A stretch of 64,000 bases of DNA from Hymenobacter cellulosilyticus (lineage in GTDB: Bacteria > Bacteroidota > Bacteroidia > Cytophagales > Hymenobacteraceae): NCBI RefSeq assembly GCF_022919215.1, contig NZ_CP095046.1, positions 124,001-188,000 of the forward strand. Direction: 5' to 3'. Position 1 is the stretch's first letter; each line of letters starts with the position of its first letter. The notes beneath the pieces are model-generated. The model searched no databases, was not told the DNA's origin, and worked only from the letters and a program-made list of their open reading frames with translations. Positions 1,984-57,884 of the stretch are shown here, in pieces. Both the position numbers and the translations under genes were made by a program.

Positions 1984-2110
1984 AGGTAGCTAATAGAATG
2001 CCGGGCTAATGGTCGAAAGCAAGTTTAAAGTTGAGGTGCGTAAGGTACGACCACGCCAAAATACCTCCTTACTTTACCAGCCGTTTCTGCCTTAGCCCTT
2101 ACTTGCACGG

Positions 2111-2775
2111 ATGTCTGCTGCCCCTACTCCCTCGAAGCCTTCCGGCACGCCTATTTTGCTCCTATCGACCAGTACCTGGCCTGGCACGACGGCTTTGATG
2201 CAGACCCAAAATACCTAACTGCCCTTTCCCCCGTCGAACAGGCGCAGGCCGAAACGGAGTTGCTGACAGCTCTGCGCGACCGGCAGGCCGATGCCCGGGC
2301 GTTGTTGGGCTTAGGGTACCTGCGTAGCGAGGAAGCATTGCCCTTGCTGCATAATCTCCTGCGCCAGGGCTGGTATGCGCAGTATGTACTGGGCGCTATT
2401 GCCGCTATCAACCCCGCTGGCCTCAACCGCACCATCCTGCTCGAAGTACTACTGAGCAGCACTAGTAGCAAGTCGCAGCTAATGGAAACCCTGATAGGTA
2501 TATACAGCAGTTTCACCCTGCCGCAAGTAGGCGCGAAAGTAGGGCAAGCCGTGCTCGGGCAGCTCACCCATTCTGATTATCTGATTCGCTACCACGCTTT
2601 GGATGCCCTACGCAAACTCTACAGCGTACCCTCCTCGGACAACATCCGGGAAGACGACCTATTTAGCCTGATCTGCAAAAAAGATGCCCCTGGCGCCTAC
2701 CGGCACGCGCAGCAAATGTTTATCAGCAAAGTGCCCGCTGCTACGCTCCAGCAATTTTCGCTGCAAGGCTCCTGA
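2111..2775 (+). CDS. HEAT-repeat protein, N-terminus frameshifted
   Basis: Reconstructed length is about 221 residues. The coding-like frame upstream of the TTG at 2260 (reading FRHAYFAPIDQYLAWHDGFD) has no start codon of its own. An ATG at 2111 in another frame joins it if one C is added to the CCC run near 2128-2131, giving MSAAPTPLEAFRHAYFAP. The body has repeated helical pairs such as ARALLGLGYLRSEEALPLLHNLL and YVLGAIAAINPAGLNRTILLEVLL, typical of HEAT-like scaffolds used for protein-protein contacts. It is predicted to be cytoplasmic, with function unknown. If the frameshift is real, translation could only start at TTG 2260 and give 171 residues. Confidence 0.6.
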
Positions 2776-2972
2776 TTCAGCAGGGAGTTACGGCGCGGGG
2801 CAGATACTGCTAAGGAAGCAAGCCGAATCTAACGGAAGCACGGCACCCGCCCTCCTATTCTGCCCCAGCCAGCGCCCCGCCAAACGTGAAAGCAACAATA
2901 CACCACGGCCCCTCTCCCGACGCGCCAGCAGCGCATTGACAGAGGAGCCGTGGAAACGGGGATAATACTCGC

Positions 2973-3818
2973 CTATTGAAGCGCGGCAGCTACTGCCGTG
3001 GTCAAAGGCGTCGTGGGGTGGCCAATCAGCTGGGAGAGCTGGCGGCTGTCGTCGAAGAGGGCACCGGCGGCGGCATCAGCATCCCAGCTGGCTATGCCGT
3101 GGGCAAAGCCTTCGGGCACCCCGAAGCTGGCAAGCGCAGCGGCATAGTCGGCGACGGGCAGGTCGCGGTAGGGAATGTCTTTGCCGGTTTGGCGCGAAAT
3201 TTCCGCGGCCAGCTCGGCTAGGGTGTACGACTCGTCGCCGGCCAACTCGTAGATTTTGCCTTCGTGGCTGGTGCCGGTGAGTACGGCTACGGCAGCATCG
3301 GCAAAGTCGGCGCGGGTGGCGGAGGAAATCCGGCCTTCTTTCGCACTGCCGATAAAGGCGCCGCCGGCCACAGCGCCGGAGATGGAGCCGGTGTAGTTTT
3401 CAGTATACCAGCCGTTGCGCAGGATGGTGAAAGCCAGGCTCGAGGCTTTGAGGTCGGCTTCCGTGGCGCGGTGCTCTTCGGCCAGGCTTAGGGGTGAGGA
3501 ATCGGCGTGCAGCACGCTGGTGTAGACGACACGGGTAACGCCGGCCTGCTTAGCGGCTTCAATAACGTTGCGGTGCTGGGTGGCGCGCTGCCCAACCTCA
3601 CTCGAGGAAATCAGCAGCAGCGTGTTCACGCCGGCCAGAGCAGCAGTGAGGGTTTCGGGCTGGCTGTAATCCGCTTCCCGGACTTCTACGCCCAGGTCGG
3701 CAGCTTTGGCCGGGTTGCGGACCAGGGCCACGAGCTGGTCGGCGGCAACCTGGGTTTTGAGTTTTTCAACGACAAGGCGACCGAGCTGACCGGTGGCGCC
3801 GGTGATGGCAATTTTCAT
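2973..3818 (-). CDS. NmrA-like NAD(P)-dependent oxidoreductase (QorB/SDR type)
   Basis: 281 residues starting at MKIAITGATGQLGRLVVEKL. The Rossmann glycine motif GATGQLG is at residues 7-13, and LLLISSSEVGQRATQHRNVIEAAKQAGV matches the atypical SDR/NmrA group that includes NAD(P)H:quinone oxidoreductase 2 and NmrA redox sensors. An in-frame start 18 codons upstream (3872) was rejected because it overlaps the operator region and adds a non-homologous tail. The gene is divergent from an HxlR regulator, a frequent arrangement in which the regulator senses electrophiles or quinones and controls the reductase. The exact substrate cannot be read from the sequence. Confidence 0.82.
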   Translation of the reverse strand: MKIAITGATGQLGRLVVEKLKTQVAADQLVALVRNPAKAADLGVEVREADYSQPETLTAALAGVNTLLLISSSEVGQRATQHRNVIEAAKQAGVTRVVYTSVLHADSSPLSLAEEHRATEADLKASSLAFTILRNGWYTENYTGSISGAVAGGAFIGSAKEGRISSATRADFADAAVAVLTGTSHEGKIYELAGDESYTLAELAAEISRQTGKDIPYRDLPVADYAAALASFGVPEGFAHGIASWDADAAAGALFDDSRQLSQLIGHPTTPLTTAVAAALQ

Positions 3819-4598: not shown

Positions 4599-5654
4599 CT
4601 ACATCGTCGGTTGCTCGGGCTGGCGGATGGATGACTTGCGGACGATGAGCTTAGTGGGCAACAGCACCTGCTGGCTAGGTGCCACGGTGGGGTCGACGGG
4701 GTTTTGGAGTTCCTCCAGCAGGATGTCGATGACGTTTTGGGCAATGCTTTCCACCGGCTGGGCAATAGCGGTAATGCCCGGGGTGTAGAGGCGGAACAGG
4801 TCGTGGTCGTCGTAGGAAATCAGCGCCAGATCCGTCGGGATGCGTAGGCCCAGCTGGGCAATAGCCTCCAGACCGTAGATGGTCAGGTAGTTGGTAGCGA
4901 AGATGATGGCGTCGCACTCGGCCTCGTCCCGAATAAAGTCGTGGATGGCGGCAATGACTTTCTCGGTTTCCTTGGTAACGGCCACGCGCTTCACCTGGGC
5001 GGGCAGGTTCTGCTCCTGCAGGGCCTGGGTGTAGCCCCGCAGCCGGTCCTCCATCTGGGTCTGAGCGGAATCGGTGGTGACAAAGGCGATGCGGCGGTAG
5101 CCCTGTTCCAGCAGGTGCTCGGTGGCCGCGTAAGTTCCCTGAGCCCCATCCACCACCACGTAGTTGGTGGGCAGGCCCGGCAGGTGCCGGTCGAAGAGCA
5201 CGGTGGGCGTATGCTCCCGCAGGATGGCGCCGACTTCCTTTTCGATTCCCTCGGAAGGCACGATGGCAAAGCCGTCGACGTGGCGCTCCTGAAACATGGC
5301 AATCAGCTCCTTGGTCTTGGTCGGGTCGTTGTCGGTGCTGCAGTAGATGATGCGGTAGCCCCGCTCGAAGGCGTGCTTCTCGATCAGCCAGGCCACGGTA
5401 GCGAAGAACGGGTTGGAAATATCCTCCACCACCAGCCCAATGACGTGGGTTTTGCCCGTGCGCAGGCTTTTGGCCAGCTGATTGGGCCGGTAGCCCACTT
5501 CCTCCACGTAGGCCAGCACGCGCTGGGCTACCGCGTCGCTGATGCGGCTTTGCTTGGCTTTGCCGTTGAGCACCAAAGACACCGTAGCAATGGACACCTG
5601 CAGATGGCTGGCTACATCGTTGATCAACGTCCGTTTTTTCACCTTGCTGTCCAT
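4599..5654 (-). CDS. LacI-family transcriptional regulator (first of a divergent pair)
   Basis: 351 residues. The N-terminal helix-turn-helix reads TLINDVASHLQVSIATVSLV, followed by the hinge segment RPNQLAKSLRTGKT. From about residue 70 comes a periplasmic-binding-protein-like sensor domain (HVIGLVVEDISNPFFATVAW, DGFAIVPSEG, TVLFDRHLPG, IISYDD-type LISYDDHDLF). It therefore binds an operator as a dimer and responds to a small ligand, usually a sugar. Ligand and targets are unknown. A near-perfect promoter lies 27 bp upstream. It is divergent from a second LacI gene of the same reconstructed length, with 229 bp between them. Confidence 0.9.
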   Translation of the reverse strand: MDSKVKKRTLINDVASHLQVSIATVSLVLNGKAKQSRISDAVAQRVLAYVEEVGYRPNQLAKSLRTGKTHVIGLVVEDISNPFFATVAWLIEKHAFERGYRIIYCSTDNDPTKTKELIAMFQERHVDGFAIVPSEGIEKEVGAILREHTPTVLFDRHLPGLPTNYVVVDGAQGTYAATEHLLEQGYRRIAFVTTDSAQTQMEDRLRGYTQALQEQNLPAQVKRVAVTKETEKVIAAIHDFIRDEAECDAIIFATNYLTIYGLEAIAQLGLRIPTDLALISYDDHDLFRLYTPGITAIAQPVESIAQNVIDILLEELQNPVDPTVAPSQQVLLPTKLIVRKSSIRQPEQPTM

Positions 5655-51056: not shown

Positions 51057-52043
51057 TTATCCTAAGCGGTGCCGCTCGTTTTTCACGGCATTCGACAAGG
51101 TCCAGGGTACTTCGTGGGCGAATGGATGCTGCCGGACCGGGCATTCGGGCATATGGCACAAGGAGCAAGCAGCAAAGGTGCATGGGTCGGCGTGGACAAA
51201 CATTTCCACTTCCACGTCGAAGCGCTGCTTAATTAGACCTTCGATGCGGTTCAGCTCATTGTGAATTTCTTCCAGGCTGAAATAATAGGGCATCTGCATG
51301 TGGCAGTCGATGTGCAGATTAGCCCCGTAGCGCAGCACGCGCAGGTTGTGCACATCAATCCACGGGGGCAGGCGGTGCTGCTGCAGCTCGGCAATTACCT
51401 GCTCCACCGTTGCCACATCCGACTCATCCATCAAAGCCGACACCGAGCGGCGCACCATCCGGTAGCCGTTGACAACGATAAACACACCCAGCAGCAAAGC
51501 GGCTCCGGCATCGAACAGGGCATTGCCCGTGAAAATCACCAGTAGTAAGGCCACACACGAAACCAAGGTGCTCAGCGCATCGATGTACAGGTGCTGCCCA
51601 TCACCAACCAGGGCCACGGAATTCATCTTTTTGCCGGAACTCACCAGCAGAAAACCCACAGCCAGGTTGACCAGTGCCGTGGCGGCCAGCAGATACATGC
51701 CCGCATCGGGCCGCTCCACGGCGTGGGGCTGCAGCACGGCCATTACCGCGCTATAGAAAATATAAACGCCGGCAAACAGAATGAGGGCACCCTCGAAGCC
51801 AACCGACAGGTATTCTACCTTACCGTGGCCGTACGGATGGTTTTCGTCCTTGGGCAGGTCGGAAAGATAGAGGCTGTAAAGGGCAAAACCGCTGGTAAAA
51901 ACGTTGATAATTGATTCCAGCGCATCAGTCAGTACGGCCTGCGACGCCGTAAGGAAATACGCGTAGAACTTGATGGCAACCAGCCCTACGCTGACAACCA
52001 GCGACAGTAAGCCAAGCCGGTTCTTGGATTGGGTAAAAGTCAT
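51057..52043 (-). CDS. Cation diffusion facilitator (CDF) metal efflux transporter
   Basis: 328 residues from MTFTQSKNRLGLLSLVVSVG; an upstream start at 52097 adds an unrelated tail. Six membrane segments include the metal site of helix 2 and helix 5: TDALESIINVFTSGF, HPYGHGKVEYLSVGFEG, GDGQHLYIDALSTLVSC (D in the H/D-x-x-x-D pattern). A cytoplasmic domain of about 90 residues follows, with RYGANLHIDCHMQMPYYFSLEE. The C-terminus has a Cys-rich sequence (DPCTFAACSLCHMPECPVRQ) that may bind metal. CDF pumps export divalent ions (Zn, Mn, Fe) using the proton gradient. It is divergent from mntH, sharing a 170-bp control region. Confidence 0.88.
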   Translation of the reverse strand: MTFTQSKNRLGLLSLVVSVGLVAIKFYAYFLTASQAVLTDALESIINVFTSGFALYSLYLSDLPKDENHPYGHGKVEYLSVGFEGALILFAGVYIFYSAVMAVLQPHAVERPDAGMYLLAATALVNLAVGFLLVSSGKKMNSVALVGDGQHLYIDALSTLVSCVALLLVIFTGNALFDAGAALLLGVFIVVNGYRMVRRSVSALMDESDVATVEQVIAELQQHRLPPWIDVHNLRVLRYGANLHIDCHMQMPYYFSLEEIHNELNRIEGLIKQRFDVEVEMFVHADPCTFAACSLCHMPECPVRQHPFAHEVPWTLSNAVKNERHRLG

Positions 52044-52157
52044 GGAAGGGGTGGGTTGAACAAAAATGGGCCTGCAAAAGTCCGGTAAAAAACCCACTTC
52101 CCTACGGTTTGCAACCTTTTTCGGCTAAATGAGTATTTAAATTGCCTTAAAAAAATG

Positions 52158-52187
52158 TTTAGGCTACCCTAAAAATATGTTCCTTTG
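52158..52187 (+). promoter_or_regulatory. mntH control region: DtxR/MntR-like palindrome and -7 element
   Basis: TTTAGG (52158-52163) and CCTAAA (52168-52173) are perfect inverted arms across CTAC, resembling DtxR-family operators. TTCCTTTG at 52180-52187 is a one-mismatch -7 element. The palindrome therefore sits where a metal-bound repressor would block the promoter. The start codon is 40 bp past the palindrome. The same kind of palindrome lies 38 bp before the TonB receptor gene. Confidence 0.6.
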
Positions 52188-52213
52188 TTGAGCTACCTGA
52201 TACTCTATTCCTT

Positions 52214-53581
52214 ATGCCTCCACTCGTACAAGCTTCCCCTACTCCGCCCTTGACTGAAAACAACTCCGGCTGGCGCCAGGAGCGCAAGCATAACTCCCTG
52301 AGCGAAGTATACGCCAGCATCCGCGTGCCGGCGGCCAATGCCTCGTTTTGGCGCAAGCTTGTGGCTTTTTGGGGACCCGGCCTCATGGTAGCCGTAGGTT
52401 ACATGGACCCTGGCAACTGGGCCACCGACATTGCCGGCGGCTCCCGCTTCGGCTATACGCTGTTGTCGGTAATTCTGATTTCCAACTTGTTTGCCATGCT
52501 GCTCCAGCACCTGGCCGCCAAGCTGGGCATCGTGACGGGGCGCGACCTGGCCCAGGCCTGCCGTGACCATTACTCCAAGCCTGTGGCAATGGTGCTGTGG
52601 GTGTTCTGCGAAGTAGCCATTGCGGCCTGCGACCTGGCCGAAGTAATTGGCTCGGCCATTGCGTTGAACCTGCTGTTCGGCCTGCCGCTGCCCTGGGGCG
52701 TGGTGCTCACCATCCTGGACGTGCTGGTGGTGCTGTTTTTCCAGAACAAGGGCTTTCGGGTTATTGAAAGCATCGTAGCTGGGCTCATTGTGGTCATTTT
52801 CGGCTGTTTCCTCTACGAAATCCTGGTTTCCCACCCCGACTACCTAGGCATTGCCAAAGGGCTGGTGCCCCAGAAAGAAGTGGTGACCACGCCCGGCATG
52901 CTCTACATTGCCATCGGTATTTTGGGTGCCACCGTAATGCCCCACAACCTGTACCTGCACTCCAGCATCGTACAAACCCGCGCTATTGAGCAAACCGAGC
53001 CGGGCAAACGCATGGCCATCAAGTTTGCTACCATCGACTCGACGGTGGCGCTGTTTCTGGCGTTTTTCGTGAATGCCGCCATCCTGATAACGGCCGCGGC
53101 CACCTTCCACACCAATGGCCTGTTTCACGTGGCCGACATTACCGATGCCCACAAGCTGCTGGCCCCGGTGCTGGGCGCCGGTGCGGCCGGCACCGTGTTT
53201 GCCATAGCCCTGCTGGCCTCGGGCCAGAACTCCACTTTGACTGGCACCCTGGCGGGTCAGATTGTGATGGAAGGCTTTCTGGACTTAAAACTCAAGCCCT
53301 GGGTACGCCGCCTCATCACCCGCGCCATTGCGGTGGTGCCAGCCTTGGTGGTCACGCTGCTCTACGGCGAGAAAGGCACGGCCGACCTGCTGGTGCTGAG
53401 CCAAGTGATTCTGTCGCTGCAGCTGAGCTTTGCGGTGGTGCCGCTGGTGCTTTTCACGGGTAGCAAGGCCAAAATGGGCGTGTTCGTAAACCGGCCGGCG
53501 CTGCAACTGGTAGCCTGGGCGGTATCGGGCATCATCATCGTGCTCAACCTCTACCTGCTGTTTACCACCTTCTTTAAGTAA
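52214..53581 (+). CDS. mntH: Nramp-family divalent metal (Mn/Fe) transporter
   Basis: 455 residues, inner-membrane proton symporter for Mn(II) and Fe(II). The metal site is intact: DPGNWATDIAGGSRFGY in TM1 (D-P-G-N) and GATVMPHNLYLHSSIV in TM6 (M-P-H). Other family segments are present: GPGLMVAVGYMDPGNW, ALLASGQNSTLTGTLAGQIVMEGF, VPLVLFTGSKAKMG. About eleven helices are predicted. The first 35 residues are a soluble Pro/Ser-rich extension. Regulation is probably by a metal-sensing repressor at the upstream palindrome. Mn versus Fe specificity is not certain from motifs. Confidence 0.92.
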   Translation: MPPLVQASPTPPLTENNSGWRQERKHNSLSEVYASIRVPAANASFWRKLVAFWGPGLMVAVGYMDPGNWATDIAGGSRFGYTLLSVILISNLFAMLLQHLAAKLGIVTGRDLAQACRDHYSKPVAMVLWVFCEVAIAACDLAEVIGSAIALNLLFGLPLPWGVVLTILDVLVVLFFQNKGFRVIESIVAGLIVVIFGCFLYEILVSHPDYLGIAKGLVPQKEVVTTPGMLYIAIGILGATVMPHNLYLHSSIVQTRAIEQTEPGKRMAIKFATIDSTVALFLAFFVNAAILITAAATFHTNGLFHVADITDAHKLLAPVLGAGAAGTVFAIALLASGQNSTLTGTLAGQIVMEGFLDLKLKPWVRRLITRAIAVVPALVVTLLYGEKGTADLLVLSQVILSLQLSFAVVPLVLFTGSKAKMGVFVNRPALQLVAWAVSGIIIVLNLYLLFTTFFK

Positions 53582-53583
53582 GC

Positions 53584-53617
53584 AAAAGGCGCAGGGCGGC
53601 TAGCTCTGCGCCTTTTT
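53584..53617 (+). terminator. Terminator of mntH
   Basis: AAAAGGCGCAG pairs with CTGCGCCTTTT around an 11-nt loop, followed by T6. The next gene's control palindrome starts 12 bp later, so mntH and the TonB receptor are separate units. Confidence 0.8.
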
Positions 53618-53629
53618 TGCGACCATACT

Positions 53630-53645
53630 TTTAGACTAGTCTAAA
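53630..53645. promoter_or_regulatory. Perfect 16-bp palindrome before the TonB receptor gene (DtxR/MntR-like)
   Basis: TTTAGACTAGTCTAAA is a perfect palindrome, 38 bp before the ATG. A seven-of-eight -7 element (TACTTTTA, 53626-53633) overlaps it. It agrees with the mntH palindrome at 13 of 16 positions. A half-site TTAGACTA follows at 53677-53684, reaching the start codon. Confidence 0.6.
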
Positions 53646-53683
53646 TAAAAAGAAAGGCCCTTCCTAAACTCAACCATTAGACT

Positions 53684-55944
53684 ATGAAAGCAATTCTCCT
53701 CTTCCTCTTTGCTTGCCTGAATACTGCTACTGTGTTGGCCCAGACCGGCATTCTAAAAGGAACAGTGCGGGCCGAGGGCAAAGTAGTGCCGTTTGCCAGC
53801 ATTGGTCTGAAGGGTACTACCCTGGGCACGACGGCCGACGAAAACGGAAGCTTTACGCTGGGCAAAGTACCGGTGGGACCACAACGGGTAGTCGTAAGTG
53901 CCGTAGGATTTCTGCTGACGGAGCGGGCCATAACGATGAGCAGCGGGCAAACGGTGACGGTAAACGTAGCACTTAGCGGCAACGCTAACGAGTTGGGCGA
54001 CGTGGTGGTGAGCGGGACACTGAGCGAAGTGGTGAAAAGCCAGTCGCCGGTGGCCGTCGAGATTTATACCCCGCGCTACTTCCAGAAAAACCCCAGCGCC
54101 TGCCTGTTCGAGAACCTGACGATGGTAAACGGGGTGCGGCCCCAACTCAACTGCAACATCTGCAACACCGGCGACATCCACATCAACGGGTTGGAGGGGC
54201 CCTACACCATGGTACTCATCGACGGCATGCCCATTGTCAGCTCCTTGTCTACGGTGTACGGGCTTAGCGGCATTCCCAACAGCATGGTCGACCGGATTGA
54301 GGTGGTGAAAGGGCCGGCGTCCACGCTCTACGGCTCGGAGGCAGTAGGCGGCCTTATCAACGTCATTACCAAAAACCCGGCAAAAGCACCCCGCTTTTCG
54401 GCCGATGCCTTCGGGACTTCCCACGGCGAAATGAACCTGGATTTGGGCACGGCGGCCAAAGTTGGGCCGGCCACTACCTTGCTCAGTGCCAACCTGTTTG
54501 GCTACAACCAGCGCCGGGACGTGAACGAGGACGGCTTCACCGACTTGCCGACCCAGCACCGGGCCTCGGTGTTCAATAAATGGTCGTTGAAACGGCCCCA
54601 GGATCGGGCGGCCAACCTGGCGGCGCGCTATTATTACGAGGACCGGTTTGGCGGGCAGCTCGGCTGGACGCCCGAGTTTCGGGGCGGCGACAGTATCTAC
54701 GGGGAAAGCGTGTACACGGGCCGCTACGAGGTACTGGGCCAATACCAATTGCCGGTGGCGGGTCAGAAATTTATGCTCAGCGGTTCTTACAACCAGCACC
54801 GGCAAAACTCGGCCTACGGCACCACGCTCTACCGGGCCACCCAGCGCGTGGGCTTCGGGCAGCTTACCTGGGCCCGCGACCTGAACATCCGGCACAGCCT
54901 GCTACTGGGCGCCACTTACCGCTACACCTGGTACGACGACAATACGCCCGCCACGGCGCGCCCCGACGGCGACCAGACCGTGACTCAGCCCGACAAAACC
55001 AGCTTGCCCGGCATTTTTGCCCAGGACGAGTGGAAAGTAACCGAAAACGCGACGCTGCTGGCCGGCTTGCGCTACGACTACAACTCGGTGCACGGCAGCA
55101 TTCTTTCGCCCCGGCTCAACTACAAGTGGAGCAAGCCCGACAACAGCCAGGTTGTGCGCGTGGGCGTAGGCAACGGCTACCGCGTGGTAAACCTGTTTAC
55201 GGAAGACCACGCCGCCCTGACCGGGGCCCGGCAGGTGGTGGTGCCCGAAGCGCTGCGCCCTGAGCGGAGCTGGAATGCCAACGTAAACTACCAGCGCTTC
55301 TTTACTACCGCCGCCGGCCAGCTGACCGTGGACGCCAGCGCCTTTTATACCTACTTCACCAACAAAATCAGTCCCGACTACACCACCAACGTCAACCAGA
55401 TAGTGTACCGCAACCTGGACGGCTACGCCGTGTCGCGGGGGGTGACGCTGAACACGGACTTCACGTTTTCGCGGCCCCTGAAGGTAATTGCGGGCATTAC
55501 GCTGATGGATGTGTTTCGGCAGGAGCGGCCCGAAGGCGGCGGCCCGCTGCAGCGCGTGACGCAGCTGCACGCCCCGGTTTTCTCGGGCACCTACGCCGTG
55601 AGCTACACCCTGGCCCGCCTGGGCGTGGTGGTCGACTACACCGGGCAGGTGAACGGCCCCATGCAGCTGCCGGTGCAGCCCAACGACTACCGTCCGGCCC
55701 GCTCCCCATGGTATTCGCTGCAGAACGTGCAGCTTACCAAGCGTCTGGGGAGCACCTGGAAATCTACGGGGGGCTGAAAAACCTGCTCGACTTCTTGCCC
55801 CGGCACGTGCTGATCCGCGCCTTCGACCCCTTCGACAAATACGTGGGCCAGGACAATCCTAACGGCTATTCCTTTGACACTGAGTACAACTATGCCCCAG
55901 TGCAGGGCCGCCGCACTTTCCTAGGCCTGCGCTACACCCTCTAA
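53684..55944 (+). CDS. TonB-dependent receptor, probably for a metal or metal complex, frameshifted
   Basis: Reconstructed length is 753 residues. A signal peptide (MKAILLFLFACLNTATVLAQ) precedes a carboxypeptidase-regulatory-like domain at 22-100. The plug has NANELGDVVVSGTLSEVV (TonB-box-like), MVNGVRPQLNCNICNTGDIHIN with Cys157 and Cys160, and LEGPYTMVLIDGMPIVSSLS. The barrel runs from about 250 to the C-terminal RRTFLGLRYTL, ending in an aromatic-hydrophobic strand. The frame is broken at GGGG 55747-55750; one added G gives RLGEHLEIYGGLKNLLDFLP. It carries the same operator type as mntH, hence predicted manganese or iron uptake across the outer membrane. The ligand is not proven. Confidence 0.85.
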
Positions 55945-56040: not shown

Positions 56041-56883
56041 ATGAAGTTCTGCTCTCTACTCCTGACCACACTAGTACTTCCCTTTTGGGCGGCCGCCCAA
56101 AACCAGGATTCCATTACGGCCAAAGCCGGCTACAACCTGTTCCGGCCTACGCCCCGCAATATGATGCGGGAACTGCGCCCCGACCGGCCCGGCTATTCCG
56201 AAAGCCCGTTTACCGTCGACCCTGGCCACTTCCAGATTGAGAGTGACTTGCTGCGGCTGGTAAATAAGCAGGAAGACCACCACCACGAGCGGAATTTTTA
56301 CCTGAACCACGCCCTGCTTAAGCTCGGCGTCACGACCCGCACCGACGTGCAGGCCGAGCTGGATTCGTACTCGATTGAGAAAGAGTGGGACGATGACCAG
56401 CCCCAGGAGCGGCACCAGGGCTTCGGCGACCTGACGCTGCGGGTAAAGCATACCTTTCTGGGCGAAGACGGCAAACCCGACGCGCTGGCCCTTATTGGGT
56501 TCGTGCGGCTGCCAGTGGGTGAGGCCGTCGGCACCAGCGTCACGGAATATGGCCTGATTGTGCCCTACAGCCACGATTTTAGCAAACAGTTCAACCTCCA
56601 GTTCCAGCTCCGCAGCGACCTGGACTACGACCGGGATGAGCAGCAGCGCTACGTGATGCTGGCCCCGAGCACTGCCGTCGACGTCGAGTTTTCGAAATTT
56701 CTTTCGGCCTTTGCCGAGGTAGTTGGGATATGGAATACGCGCCAAAATGAATGGCAAGCCAACCTCAACGTGGGCCCGCAGCTGCACCTGAGCGACAACC
56801 TGATAGTAGACTTCGGCACGCACTTAGCGCTAACCAAGGCTACCGACCACGAATATTTTCTGGGCGTCAGCTTCCGGCGGTAG
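56041..56883 (+). CDS. Outer-membrane transporter-like protein (MetA-pathway phenol degradation family-like)
   Basis: 280 residues with a signal peptide (FCSLLLTTLVLPFWAAAQNQ). MMRELRPDRPGYSESPFTVDPGHFQIE resembles the conserved start of the PF13557 group (RPDRP...S..T...GH.QIE), after which alternating strands run to LGVSFRR, as in a beta-barrel that ends with an aromatic/Arg pattern. A His-rich loop (KQEDHHHERNF) is near residue 82. It starts 96 bp after the receptor gene with no terminator between, so it is likely co-transcribed and may assist metal uptake. Family role in such loci is unknown. Confidence 0.7.
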   Translation: MKFCSLLLTTLVLPFWAAAQNQDSITAKAGYNLFRPTPRNMMRELRPDRPGYSESPFTVDPGHFQIESDLLRLVNKQEDHHHERNFYLNHALLKLGVTTRTDVQAELDSYSIEKEWDDDQPQERHQGFGDLTLRVKHTFLGEDGKPDALALIGFVRLPVGEAVGTSVTEYGLIVPYSHDFSKQFNLQFQLRSDLDYDRDEQQRYVMLAPSTAVDVEFSKFLSAFAEVVGIWNTRQNEWQANLNVGPQLHLSDNLIVDFGTHLALTKATDHEYFLGVSFRR

Positions 56884-56953: not shown

Positions 56954-57328
56954 TTAGCCGTTGTCCGTCATTAGGGAGCGGGTCTGGGCTTTCCAGTCGG
57001 TGATAAGCCAGACGATGATGGAGAAGATGCCAAGGCCCAGAAACAGGTTTCGCTCGGCGCTGTTGGCCTCGAAGTGGAACAGAAATGGCACAGCGGCCAG
57101 GGCTACACCGGTGAGCAGATCAAGCCAGCCGTGCACGGGAAATGGAATCAGGCGCAACAGGCCCAGACGAAAATCGGTGAGCAGGGTGACGAGCAGATAG
57201 CCGCCGGCCAGCACAAAGCAGGCCGTGTCGATGGGCGCTTCCAGGTCGAACATAACCGGTGCCAGCGCCACGAAGGTGATAAAGGCTACGTCAATGATGC
57301 CGTGGGCGGAAGGTGAAAGGATTTTCAT
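56954..57328 (-). CDS. Small SPW-repeat-like membrane protein, paralogue A
   Basis: 124 residues from MKILSPSAHGIIDVAFITFV; a start 11 codons earlier adds a non-homologous tail. Four membrane segments are seen, in two similar halves: HGIIDVAFITFVALAPVMFDLEA and HGWLDLLTGVALAAVPFLFHFEAN. The HGW-L-x-L-x-x-G-x-A-L-x-x-x-P-F-L pattern resembles SPW-repeat proteins. It is a diverged tandem copy of the gene at 57489. Both share a unique upstream element. Function is unknown. Confidence 0.75.
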   Translation of the reverse strand: MKILSPSAHGIIDVAFITFVALAPVMFDLEAPIDTACFVLAGGYLLVTLLTDFRLGLLRLIPFPVHGWLDLLTGVALAAVPFLFHFEANSAERNLFLGLGIFSIIVWLITDWKAQTRSLMTDNG

Positions 57329-57368
57329 AGCTAGGTTAGGTGAGGTTGGGTGAAAGAGCAACTTGATT

Positions 57369-57488: not shown

Positions 57489-57884
57489 TTAGTGGTTAGG
57501 CATCATCGTGCCGTGACCATGGGTTTGGGTATGGGTATCAGCATGCCAGTCGGTCAGCATCCAGGTACCCAGGAAGAGCACGCCCATGCCCATGAAGAAG
57601 TTACGGGCAGTTTCGTTGTCATCGGCGAAACCAAACAGGAAAGGCGAGGCCAGCAGGGCAATACCGCTAACCAGTTCCAGCCAGCCGTGCATCGGGAACG
57701 AAATCAGGTGGGCAACGCCCATCTGGAAGTCGGTCAGCAGGGTAACAACTAAGTAGCCGGCAGCCAGCACGTAGCACACGGTAGCGTAGGTGCCGTCAAA
57801 ATCGAAGAGCGTAGGCGCCAGGGCGAACAGCAGAATCGTTCCGTAGTCGAGCATGCCGTGCACGCGGGGTGATATAACTTTCAT
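57489..57884 (-). CDS. Small SPW-repeat-like membrane protein, paralogue B
   Basis: 131 residues from MKVISPRVHGMLDYGTILLF. It has the same four-helix, two-half plan as paralogue A (HGMLDYGTILLFALAPTLFDFD and HGWLELVSGIALLASPFLFGF), with about half of positions alike by eye. It ends in a His-rich tail (DWHADTHTQTHGHGTMMPNH) absent from A, a possible metal or proton site. It has its own terminator and the shared upstream element. Function is unknown. Confidence 0.75.
   Translation of the reverse strand: MKVISPRVHGMLDYGTILLFALAPTLFDFDGTYATVCYVLAAGYLVVTLLTDFQMGVAHLISFPMHGWLELVSGIALLASPFLFGFADDNETARNFFMGMGVLFLGTWMLTDWHADTHTQTHGHGTMMPNH

Follow-up and report, generated by a model that had tools for sequence, protein, structure and literature searches.

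Are the two matching 16-base-pair (bp) palindromes that stand before a manganese importer gene, mntH, and before the TonB-dependent receptor gene that follows it operators of one metal-sensing repressor, so that uptake across the inner and the outer membrane would be governed together? The question is raised by a stretch of 64,000 nucleotides of Hymenobacter cellulosilyticus (assembly GCF_022919215.1, contig NZ_CP095046.1, positions 124,001 to 188,000), called the window below, for which a sequence-only reading had proposed such a link. According to the evidence set out here, shared control of mntH and the receptor by a DtxR/MntR-type protein has a probability of about 0.85, and both palindromes are very probably binding sites, as predicted from their sequence, of a manganese-type repressor. 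That manganese is also the main cargo of the receptor is favoured, although with clearly less confidence. The four elements concerned are the following.

52158..52173, plus strand: putative main mntH operator TTTAGGCTACCCTAAA, 40 bp 5' of the mntH ATG at 52214
52214..53581, plus strand: mntH, Nramp manganese importer, 455 amino acids (PF01566)
53630..53645, plus strand: putative receptor operator TTTAGACTAGTCTAAA, 38 bp 5' of the receptor ATG at 53684
53684..55777, plus strand: TonB-dependent receptor, type A, 697 amino acids as read (PF13715, PF07715, PF00593)

The distances of 40 and 38 bp to the start codons and the identity of the two palindromes at 13/16 positions, both claimed by the sequence-only reading, were reproduced; TTTAGACTAGTCTAAA is a perfect palindrome, and TTTAGGCTACCCTAAA matches its reverse complement at all but 2 of 16 positions. 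The same reading had cited TTAGG...CCTAA-type arms for DtxR/MntR/IdeR operators; at both sites TTAG and CTAA are exact, the inner pair being G/C at 52158 and A/T at 53630, that is, R/Y instead of the strict G/C of the 14-bp inverted repeat TTAGG-N4-CCTAA. The core TTAGRNNNNYCTAA fits the 14-bp single-dimer consensus TTAGGNNNNCCTAA of IdeR/DtxR (PMC8464063). With up to two mismatches the window holds four matches (two sites, both strands), against a mean of 0.75 in shuffled sequence, four being reached in 3/100 shuffles. In the organism's own assembly (6,087,913 bases, 3 contigs, 95% complete), exact matches to TTTAGNNTANNCTAAA and TTTAGRNNNNYCTAAA occur solely at the two window sites, so that the frequent or random placement that had been named as refuting the proposal was not seen when the genome-wide search it had called for was made. 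Since a reversed control pattern also gives one exact match per strand, it is the placement of the sites, not their count, that is remarkable. Tolerating one mismatch adds 8 further places, for a total of 10 per strand compared with 40 for the reversed control. A large regulon in this genome was considered and rejected, there being no third exact site in the assembly.

The placement recurs across the genus. All 61 genus genomes searched encode mntH, and they yielded 61 mntH loci from 60 genomes including the window (two loci from G003; G028 was left out, its mntH being cut by a contig end). The pattern TTTAGN6CTAAA lies 5' of mntH in 61/61 loci, within 130 bp in 60 of them and about 280 bp upstream in L080, whose operator is also the single match in the other 506,714 positions; within 180 bp 3' of mntH the pattern is found in 31/61 loci. 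A receptor gene was recognised after mntH in 50/61 loci, 11 of the window's type A and 39 (one partial) of a second kind, type B, with no receptor open reading frame (ORF) recognised in the other 11. Types A and B are alike over about the N-terminal 250 residues only, at roughly 34% identity. When the 18 best candidates per genome were scored, a window-type receptor was found at E <=1e-80 in 11/61 genomes, in all of them directly 3' of mntH and on the same strand. The boundary between the two window genes is marked by a further element.

53584..53618, plus strand: intrinsic terminator separating mntH from the receptor gene (hairpin plus T-run, found by script; strong)

With a scan that ended at the receptor's own operator where present and otherwise covered 160 bp, such an operator 3' of mntH was accompanied by a terminator in 29/31 cases (L096 is counted here although no receptor ORF was recovered from it), and receptors devoid of their own operator showed no terminator in 18/20, as for an operon. 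With mntH ending at this terminator, the receptor would form a second transcription unit under the same repressor.

The association extends beyond the genus. Among 148 genomes of the order, 30 have MntH at E <=1e-60, 20 of these belonging to other genera, and in 15/20 of these other-genus mntH loci the exact operator stands within 350 bp upstream, with 4 matches in the remaining 153,917 positions. At L173, which comes from a different family, mntH and a type A receptor gene are divergently oriented, each having its own site and a weaker neighbour at 22 bp. A type A alignment scan of named genomes gave at least 583 relatives, of which the 80 closest were kept, spanning Cytophagales, Chitinophagales, Sphingobacteriales, Flavobacteriales and Saprospirales, with others unassigned; 78/80 loci were analysed, L204 and L231, both with an exact site, having been dropped by the ORF filter. 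TTAGN6CTAA lies between -180 and +60 of the start in 68/78 of these receptors, a proportion valid for close relatives only, given how the 80 were selected. In density terms this corresponds to 73 sites in 18,542 positions near starts against 21 in 1,004,066 elsewhere. The strict TTTAGN6CTAAA is present in 44/74 receptor loci (reversed control 0), and the outer pair of the receptor operators is T-A in 46, G-C in 16, A-T in 3 and not complementary in 8.

Among these relatives, mntH is near the receptor in 7/74 and a divergent mntR is directly adjacent in 17/78, one more mntR lying further off. In 3 further relatives a fusion of an ABC-3 permease with DtxR is encoded no more than about 4.6 kb from the receptor (L272 2147-3427 and L246 9275-10561 by a Pfam run, L234 about 2025-3308 by its similar start); these proteins join an ABC-3 metal permease to the DtxR metal-binding/dimerisation domain. 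A thioredoxin-fold protein is encoded 3' of the receptor in 20/78, the distance being at most 72 bp in 19 of them and 481 bp in L202 (Pfam was run on one). The plug of the window receptor carries the motif CNIC, both cysteines being invariant in 35/35 aligned type A receptors; in the relatives the motif reads CN.C, or CS[IV]C in four. The proposal that one DtxR/MntR-type operator links mntH and the TonB receptor is therefore supported by the genus loci and by 15/20 other-genus mntH loci, and in addition by receptor relatives lacking an adjacent mntH, by divergent mntR in 17/78 and by the agreement between repressor and operator described next.

The genome contains one DtxR-family gene (PF02742), at G000:C1:3868.4-3869.0k, whose domains PF01325, PF02742 and PF04023 (FeoA) all score over the cut-off. 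A close match to it exists in 61/61 genus genomes and is single in 59 (G003 gives two hits and G005 a split gene). The nearest solved relatives of this repressor are 5zr4 (a metal-dependent regulator), 8pvt (a putative iron-dependent repressor), ScaR and SloR. The outer pair of the operator could be compared with the recognition helix of the repressor in a set made of 18 free-standing receptor neighbours and of repressors from 28 of 29 hand-chosen genomes (all but that of L208). T-A operators go with Asp at repressor position 42 (SV[TS]DM) in 26 rows, and G-C operators with Ser, Ala or Asn (NSM, TSM, NAM, NNM, HSM) in 16 rows, both without exception among the rows counted; the A-T class has no clean helix rule, because its three rows, all Asp, show TDF twice and IDM once. 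In these counts, L252 (mixed outer pair) is in the repressor tree and outside the count, whereas the repressors of L272 (mixed outer pair; L300, L309) and the paralogues L295, L298, L304, L307 and L308 are outside the tree. In the genome of L222, where the receptor has a G-C operator, two Asp (TDM)-type repressors were present and a third, of NSM type, was guessed and found; both Asp-type genes have TTTAG/CTAAA (T-A) sites before themselves, and the fitting paralogue (L306) was chosen by hand for the count. A purely statistical treatment of the covariation was tried and discarded: the Fisher value of 2.5e-11 ignores kinship, and with two switches a sign test cannot reach significance. As binding by the IdeR mutant Q43A was not weakened (PMC8464063), the claim is confined to an association of helix type with operator type and names no base-reading residue.

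At the promoters themselves, three further elements can be proposed.

52136..52151, plus strand: auxiliary (weaker) putative operator TTTAAATTGCCTTAAA, exactly 22 bp 5' of the main mntH operator
52180..52187, plus strand: putative -7-like promoter element TTCCTTTG, which matches TAnnTTTG with one mismatch
53653..53668, plus strand: possible weak auxiliary half-site with the end CCTAAA, 23 bp 3' of the receptor operator

Over the 61 genus loci the offset of -22 from the mntH operator gives a mean of 7.8/10 arm positions, the next best offset 5.4, and the 22-bp tandem arrangement is, at 0 mismatches, unique in the organism's own genome; 22 bp are two helical turns. This site had escaped the sequence-only reading, as had the terminator, the exchange of receptor types and the frameshift in the window receptor described below. 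The -7 consensus of Bacteroidota, TAnnTTTG, is found after the mntH operator in 29/61 genus loci and in 0/61 in each of two control stretches; the window's mntH promoter has no exact copy. Across the phylum it is found 3' of 27/68 receptor operators (controls 2 and 1). A bound repressor would block the mntH promoter, because the -7-like element follows the operator; as judged from motif positions, a blocked -7 region is predicted for mntH and part of the receptor family, not for the window's receptor.

In the model that these data suggest, a metal-bound MntR-type repressor would sit on the mntH promoter at the main site and at the weaker site 22 bp upstream, presumably binding the pair cooperatively, and the same protein would occupy the separate TonB receptor promoter. 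When manganese falls, both genes would be switched on, the receptor then using TonB energy to bring the metal, or a chelate of it, through the outer membrane and MntH carrying it across the inner membrane. Conservation and placement of the sites, co-occurrence of the repressor and helix-operator agreement are computed results; that the repressor binds, represses and acts cooperatively, that its metal is manganese and that the proteins transport it is inferred from them.

A number of observations weigh against this model or parts of it. The repressor scores at best 171.2 of the 350 bits set as cut-off for the NCBIfam MntR equivalog, and is therefore called MntR-type rather than MntR; its own gene has no operator upstream. 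Near the start of 10/78 type A receptors TTAGN6CTAA is absent, and TAnnTTTG follows 0/31 of the genus receptor operators. Only a weak auxiliary site accompanies the receptor operator: the best mean offsets over 31 genus receptor promoters are +22 (5.81/10) and +23 (6.0/10), and 45 Bacteroidota receptor promoters of T-A type give 5.89 at +22, 5.07 at +23 and 4.38 at the next. The helix-operator agreement amounts to 2 independent switches on the tree, both in the expected direction, and is thus agreement rather than proof. The ORF of the window receptor is frameshifted near 55750, the other frame continuing to 55944. Finally, cysteine, conserved in the plug, is an unusual manganese ligand, and the repressor has, in the alignment with the structure 5zr4, a Lys at what we take to be the place of the Lys that replaces Glu11 in Deinococcus DR2539, the protein to which 5zr4 presumably belongs. 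The MntR-like DR2539 answers to both Mn and Fe (PMC3327659), and a protein with Lys at the equivalent place may accordingly respond to iron.

This last point leads to the best surviving alternative, in which the regulon responds to iron or to both metals, the receptor imports an iron chelate and MntH handles Fe(II) in addition to Mn(II). It would be compatible with shared control and incompatible with manganese as main cargo, and it is considered unlikely, if the least unlikely of the alternatives. The ligand-like residues H78, E82, H97, E101, E104 and H105 are conserved in 49/49 aligned repressors, and E101, which we take to be equivalent to Cys102 of DtxR, puts Glu in the place of Cys in all of them, which argues against iron. 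So do the fusions of ABC-3 permease and DtxR near receptors and the classification of the transporters: MntH reaches 632.2 bits against a cut-off of 430 for the NCBIfam Mn(2+) uptake NRAMP transporter model, and the best specific model for the exporter divergent from mntH is MntE, albeit below its cut-off.

51057..52043, minus strand: CDF-family cation exporter, divergent from mntH (PF01545, PF16916)

As the exporter scores 185.8 bits where the MntE equivalog requires 500, while exceeding the cut-off of superfamily TIGR01297, it is filed as CDF only.

The exporter is also central to a second, improbable alternative, namely that the upstream auxiliary site serves the divergent CDF gene and that the repressor activates efflux. 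Bacillus MntR reportedly activates exporters through several upstream sites (PMC11275975), and a divergent CDF gene is present in 54/61 genus mntH loci. The auxiliary site is nevertheless equally good in the 7 loci without this gene (mean 8.0/10) and in the 54 with it (7.8); being retained where CDF is missing, it probably serves mntH.

Still less probable is that the palindromes are sites of another regulator, or mere promoter or termination elements. The mntH operator does adjoin a promoter, TAnnTTTG coming right after it in 29/61 loci. The presence of a single DtxR-family gene in the genome, divergent mntR genes beside 17/78 receptors and the match of outer pair and recognition helix all speak for the MntR-type repressor instead, as does the L222 genome, with T-A sites before its TDM-type genes and a G-C receptor site together with an NSM-type paralogue. 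A chance likeness of two AT-rich 16-mers, for which the unenriched counts in the organism's own genome (2 against 1 for the reversed control) might plead, is refuted by conservation and placement in 61/61 genus and 68/78 receptor loci.

The regulatory conclusion is independent of the window's own receptor copy. Both its plug and its beta-barrel were found, and about 60 further receptor codons are intact in the other frame (55750-55944), relatives reading through to about 753 amino acids; the part lost would include the last barrel strand of the model (744-751). If the frameshift is real, the receptor of this strain is probably inactive, an assembly error being equally possible. At the mntH locus L072, in G010, another type A receptor gene is likewise broken, its sequence being divided between two reading frames. 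The type A alignment also shows, at positions 279-287, a conserved DxNxDGFTD loop, which in our view resembles a calcium-binding loop. The next gene after the receptor encodes an outer-membrane protein.

56041..56883, plus strand: outer-membrane barrel protein, 280 amino acids (PF13557)

The exporter, MntH, the TonB receptor and the barrel protein had been named as such beforehand, and Pfam confirmed all four identities. Beyond them, on the minus strand, 56954-57331 and 57489-57884 encode two neighbouring small proteins of the membrane that contain SPW repeats (PF03779, the first scoring slightly below its cut-off).

The outer-membrane component appears to be exchangeable. On the best mntH tree at least five A/B changes are needed, two changes of A being forced by well-supported branches (L096 was scored as B from a 34% plug match). 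In G029 and G044 the mntH locus has no receptor, and a distal type B receptor bears the 22-bp-spaced operator pair; in G048 and G018 a relative of the window barrel protein (44 and 41% identity) faces an operator at a distal locus. Distal palindromes were studied at 20 loci of related genomes, hand-chosen from among the matches listed. Their sites face a type B receptor at L153 and L155 and a PF13557 barrel at L146 and L157, while a thioredoxin gene adjoins the site at L149 and a di-haem oxidoreductase gene that at L159; the palindromes of L151, L156, L160, L161 and L162 fall within ORFs, and no target was identified among the partly scanned neighbours of L147, L148, L152, L158, L164 and L165. 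At L154 a palindrome (4759-4774) stands between an OprB porin gene, at 116 bp, and a hydrolase gene, at 59 bp; at L163 22-bp-spaced palindromes (5039-5076) lie 760 bp from an OprB porin gene; from this proximity, OprB-family porins are possible further outer-membrane members of the regulon. A palindrome pair at L150 (5048-5063, G010) is 347 bp from a ferritin gene, and a similar pair occurs at L147 (G046), where no target was recognised.

Because A and B were repeatedly exchanged under the same repressor, one regulon seems to recruit different outer-membrane parts. A wider proposal, offered tentatively and at somewhat less than even odds, is that type A receptors are dedicated outer-membrane manganese importers throughout Bacteroidota, switched by MntR, with a plug-loop CNxC lining the ligand chamber and serviced by a secreted thioredoxin in many lineages; at the Hymenobacter mntH locus they would have been repeatedly exchanged with the unrelated type B, within one regulon recruiting A, B, the PF13557 barrel and perhaps OprB.

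Comparable MntR control of a TonB receptor is already known from Stenotrophomonas maltophilia, where an MntR module comprises MntH, MntP, a TonB receptor with a CQNC plug and a periplasmic thioredoxin-fold protein (PMC13217887, 2026). Both systems have an MntR-type box before mntH and before the receptor and a Cys-x-x-Cys in the plug, and in Bacteroidota the thioredoxin-fold gene lies downstream in 20/78 relatives, with mntR or mntH adjacent in many. They differ in phylum and operator, a 25-bp box there and a 16-bp TTAGR-N4-YCTAA-type site here, and in the plug, CQNC against CNIC, the receptors being likened by motif and context; moreover, the window has the barrel protein, not a thioredoxin-fold gene, directly after the receptor. 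The main text of PMC13217887 contains 0 mentions of Bacteroid-, Flavobacter- or Cytophag-. The operator shares with that of IdeR/DtxR the single-dimer core TTAGGNNNNCCTAA and departs from it in the inner G/C relaxed to R/Y, in an extra outer base pair and in a 22-bp repeat in place of a 19-bp double site (PMC8464063). SloR, a Mn repressor of the DtxR family that likewise has a FeoA domain, binds adjacent palindromes at the Streptococcus mutans mntH promoter cooperatively with involvement of that domain, the preferred palindrome overlying the -35 element (PMC12096823); its host, however, is Gram-positive and has no outer membrane, its palindrome is different, and cooperativity was measured there and is presumed here. 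DR2539 resembles the present repressor in its family, in its Lys at the position of Glu11 and in acting on mntH, as is proposed here, but no TonB receptor is mentioned in the consulted passages of PMC3327659, unlike the situation in the window.

Among the matches listed in searches of open-licence PMC full text, none dealt with a TonB receptor under MntR control in Bacteroidota, and what appears new, in that it was not found in print, is the reach of such control across this phylum. To our knowledge, the crossing of the outer membrane by manganese is known in few bacteria, and for one of the transporters concerned, MnoT, we know of no link to an MntR site. MnoT of Burkholderia thailandensis is a TonB-dependent outer-membrane manganese transporter (described in PMC13217887), like the window receptor in its TonB dependence and proposed substrate, but unlike it in working with a secreted protein, TseM.

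As far as sequence can tell, manganese uptake would include a step at the outer membrane that has gone unrecognised. A family of receptors that occurs in several Bacteroidota orders and is labelled by a repressor site makes the question of manganese crossing directly testable, the same repressor and operator type being combined with named receptors in culturable Hymenobacter, Pontibacter, Chitinophaga and Flavobacterium. The operator rule, TTAGR-N4-YCTAA with a helix-matching outer pair, may allow metal regulons to be called from sequence phylum-wide, and the receptor swaps present the regulator as the fixed point around which outer-membrane parts change.
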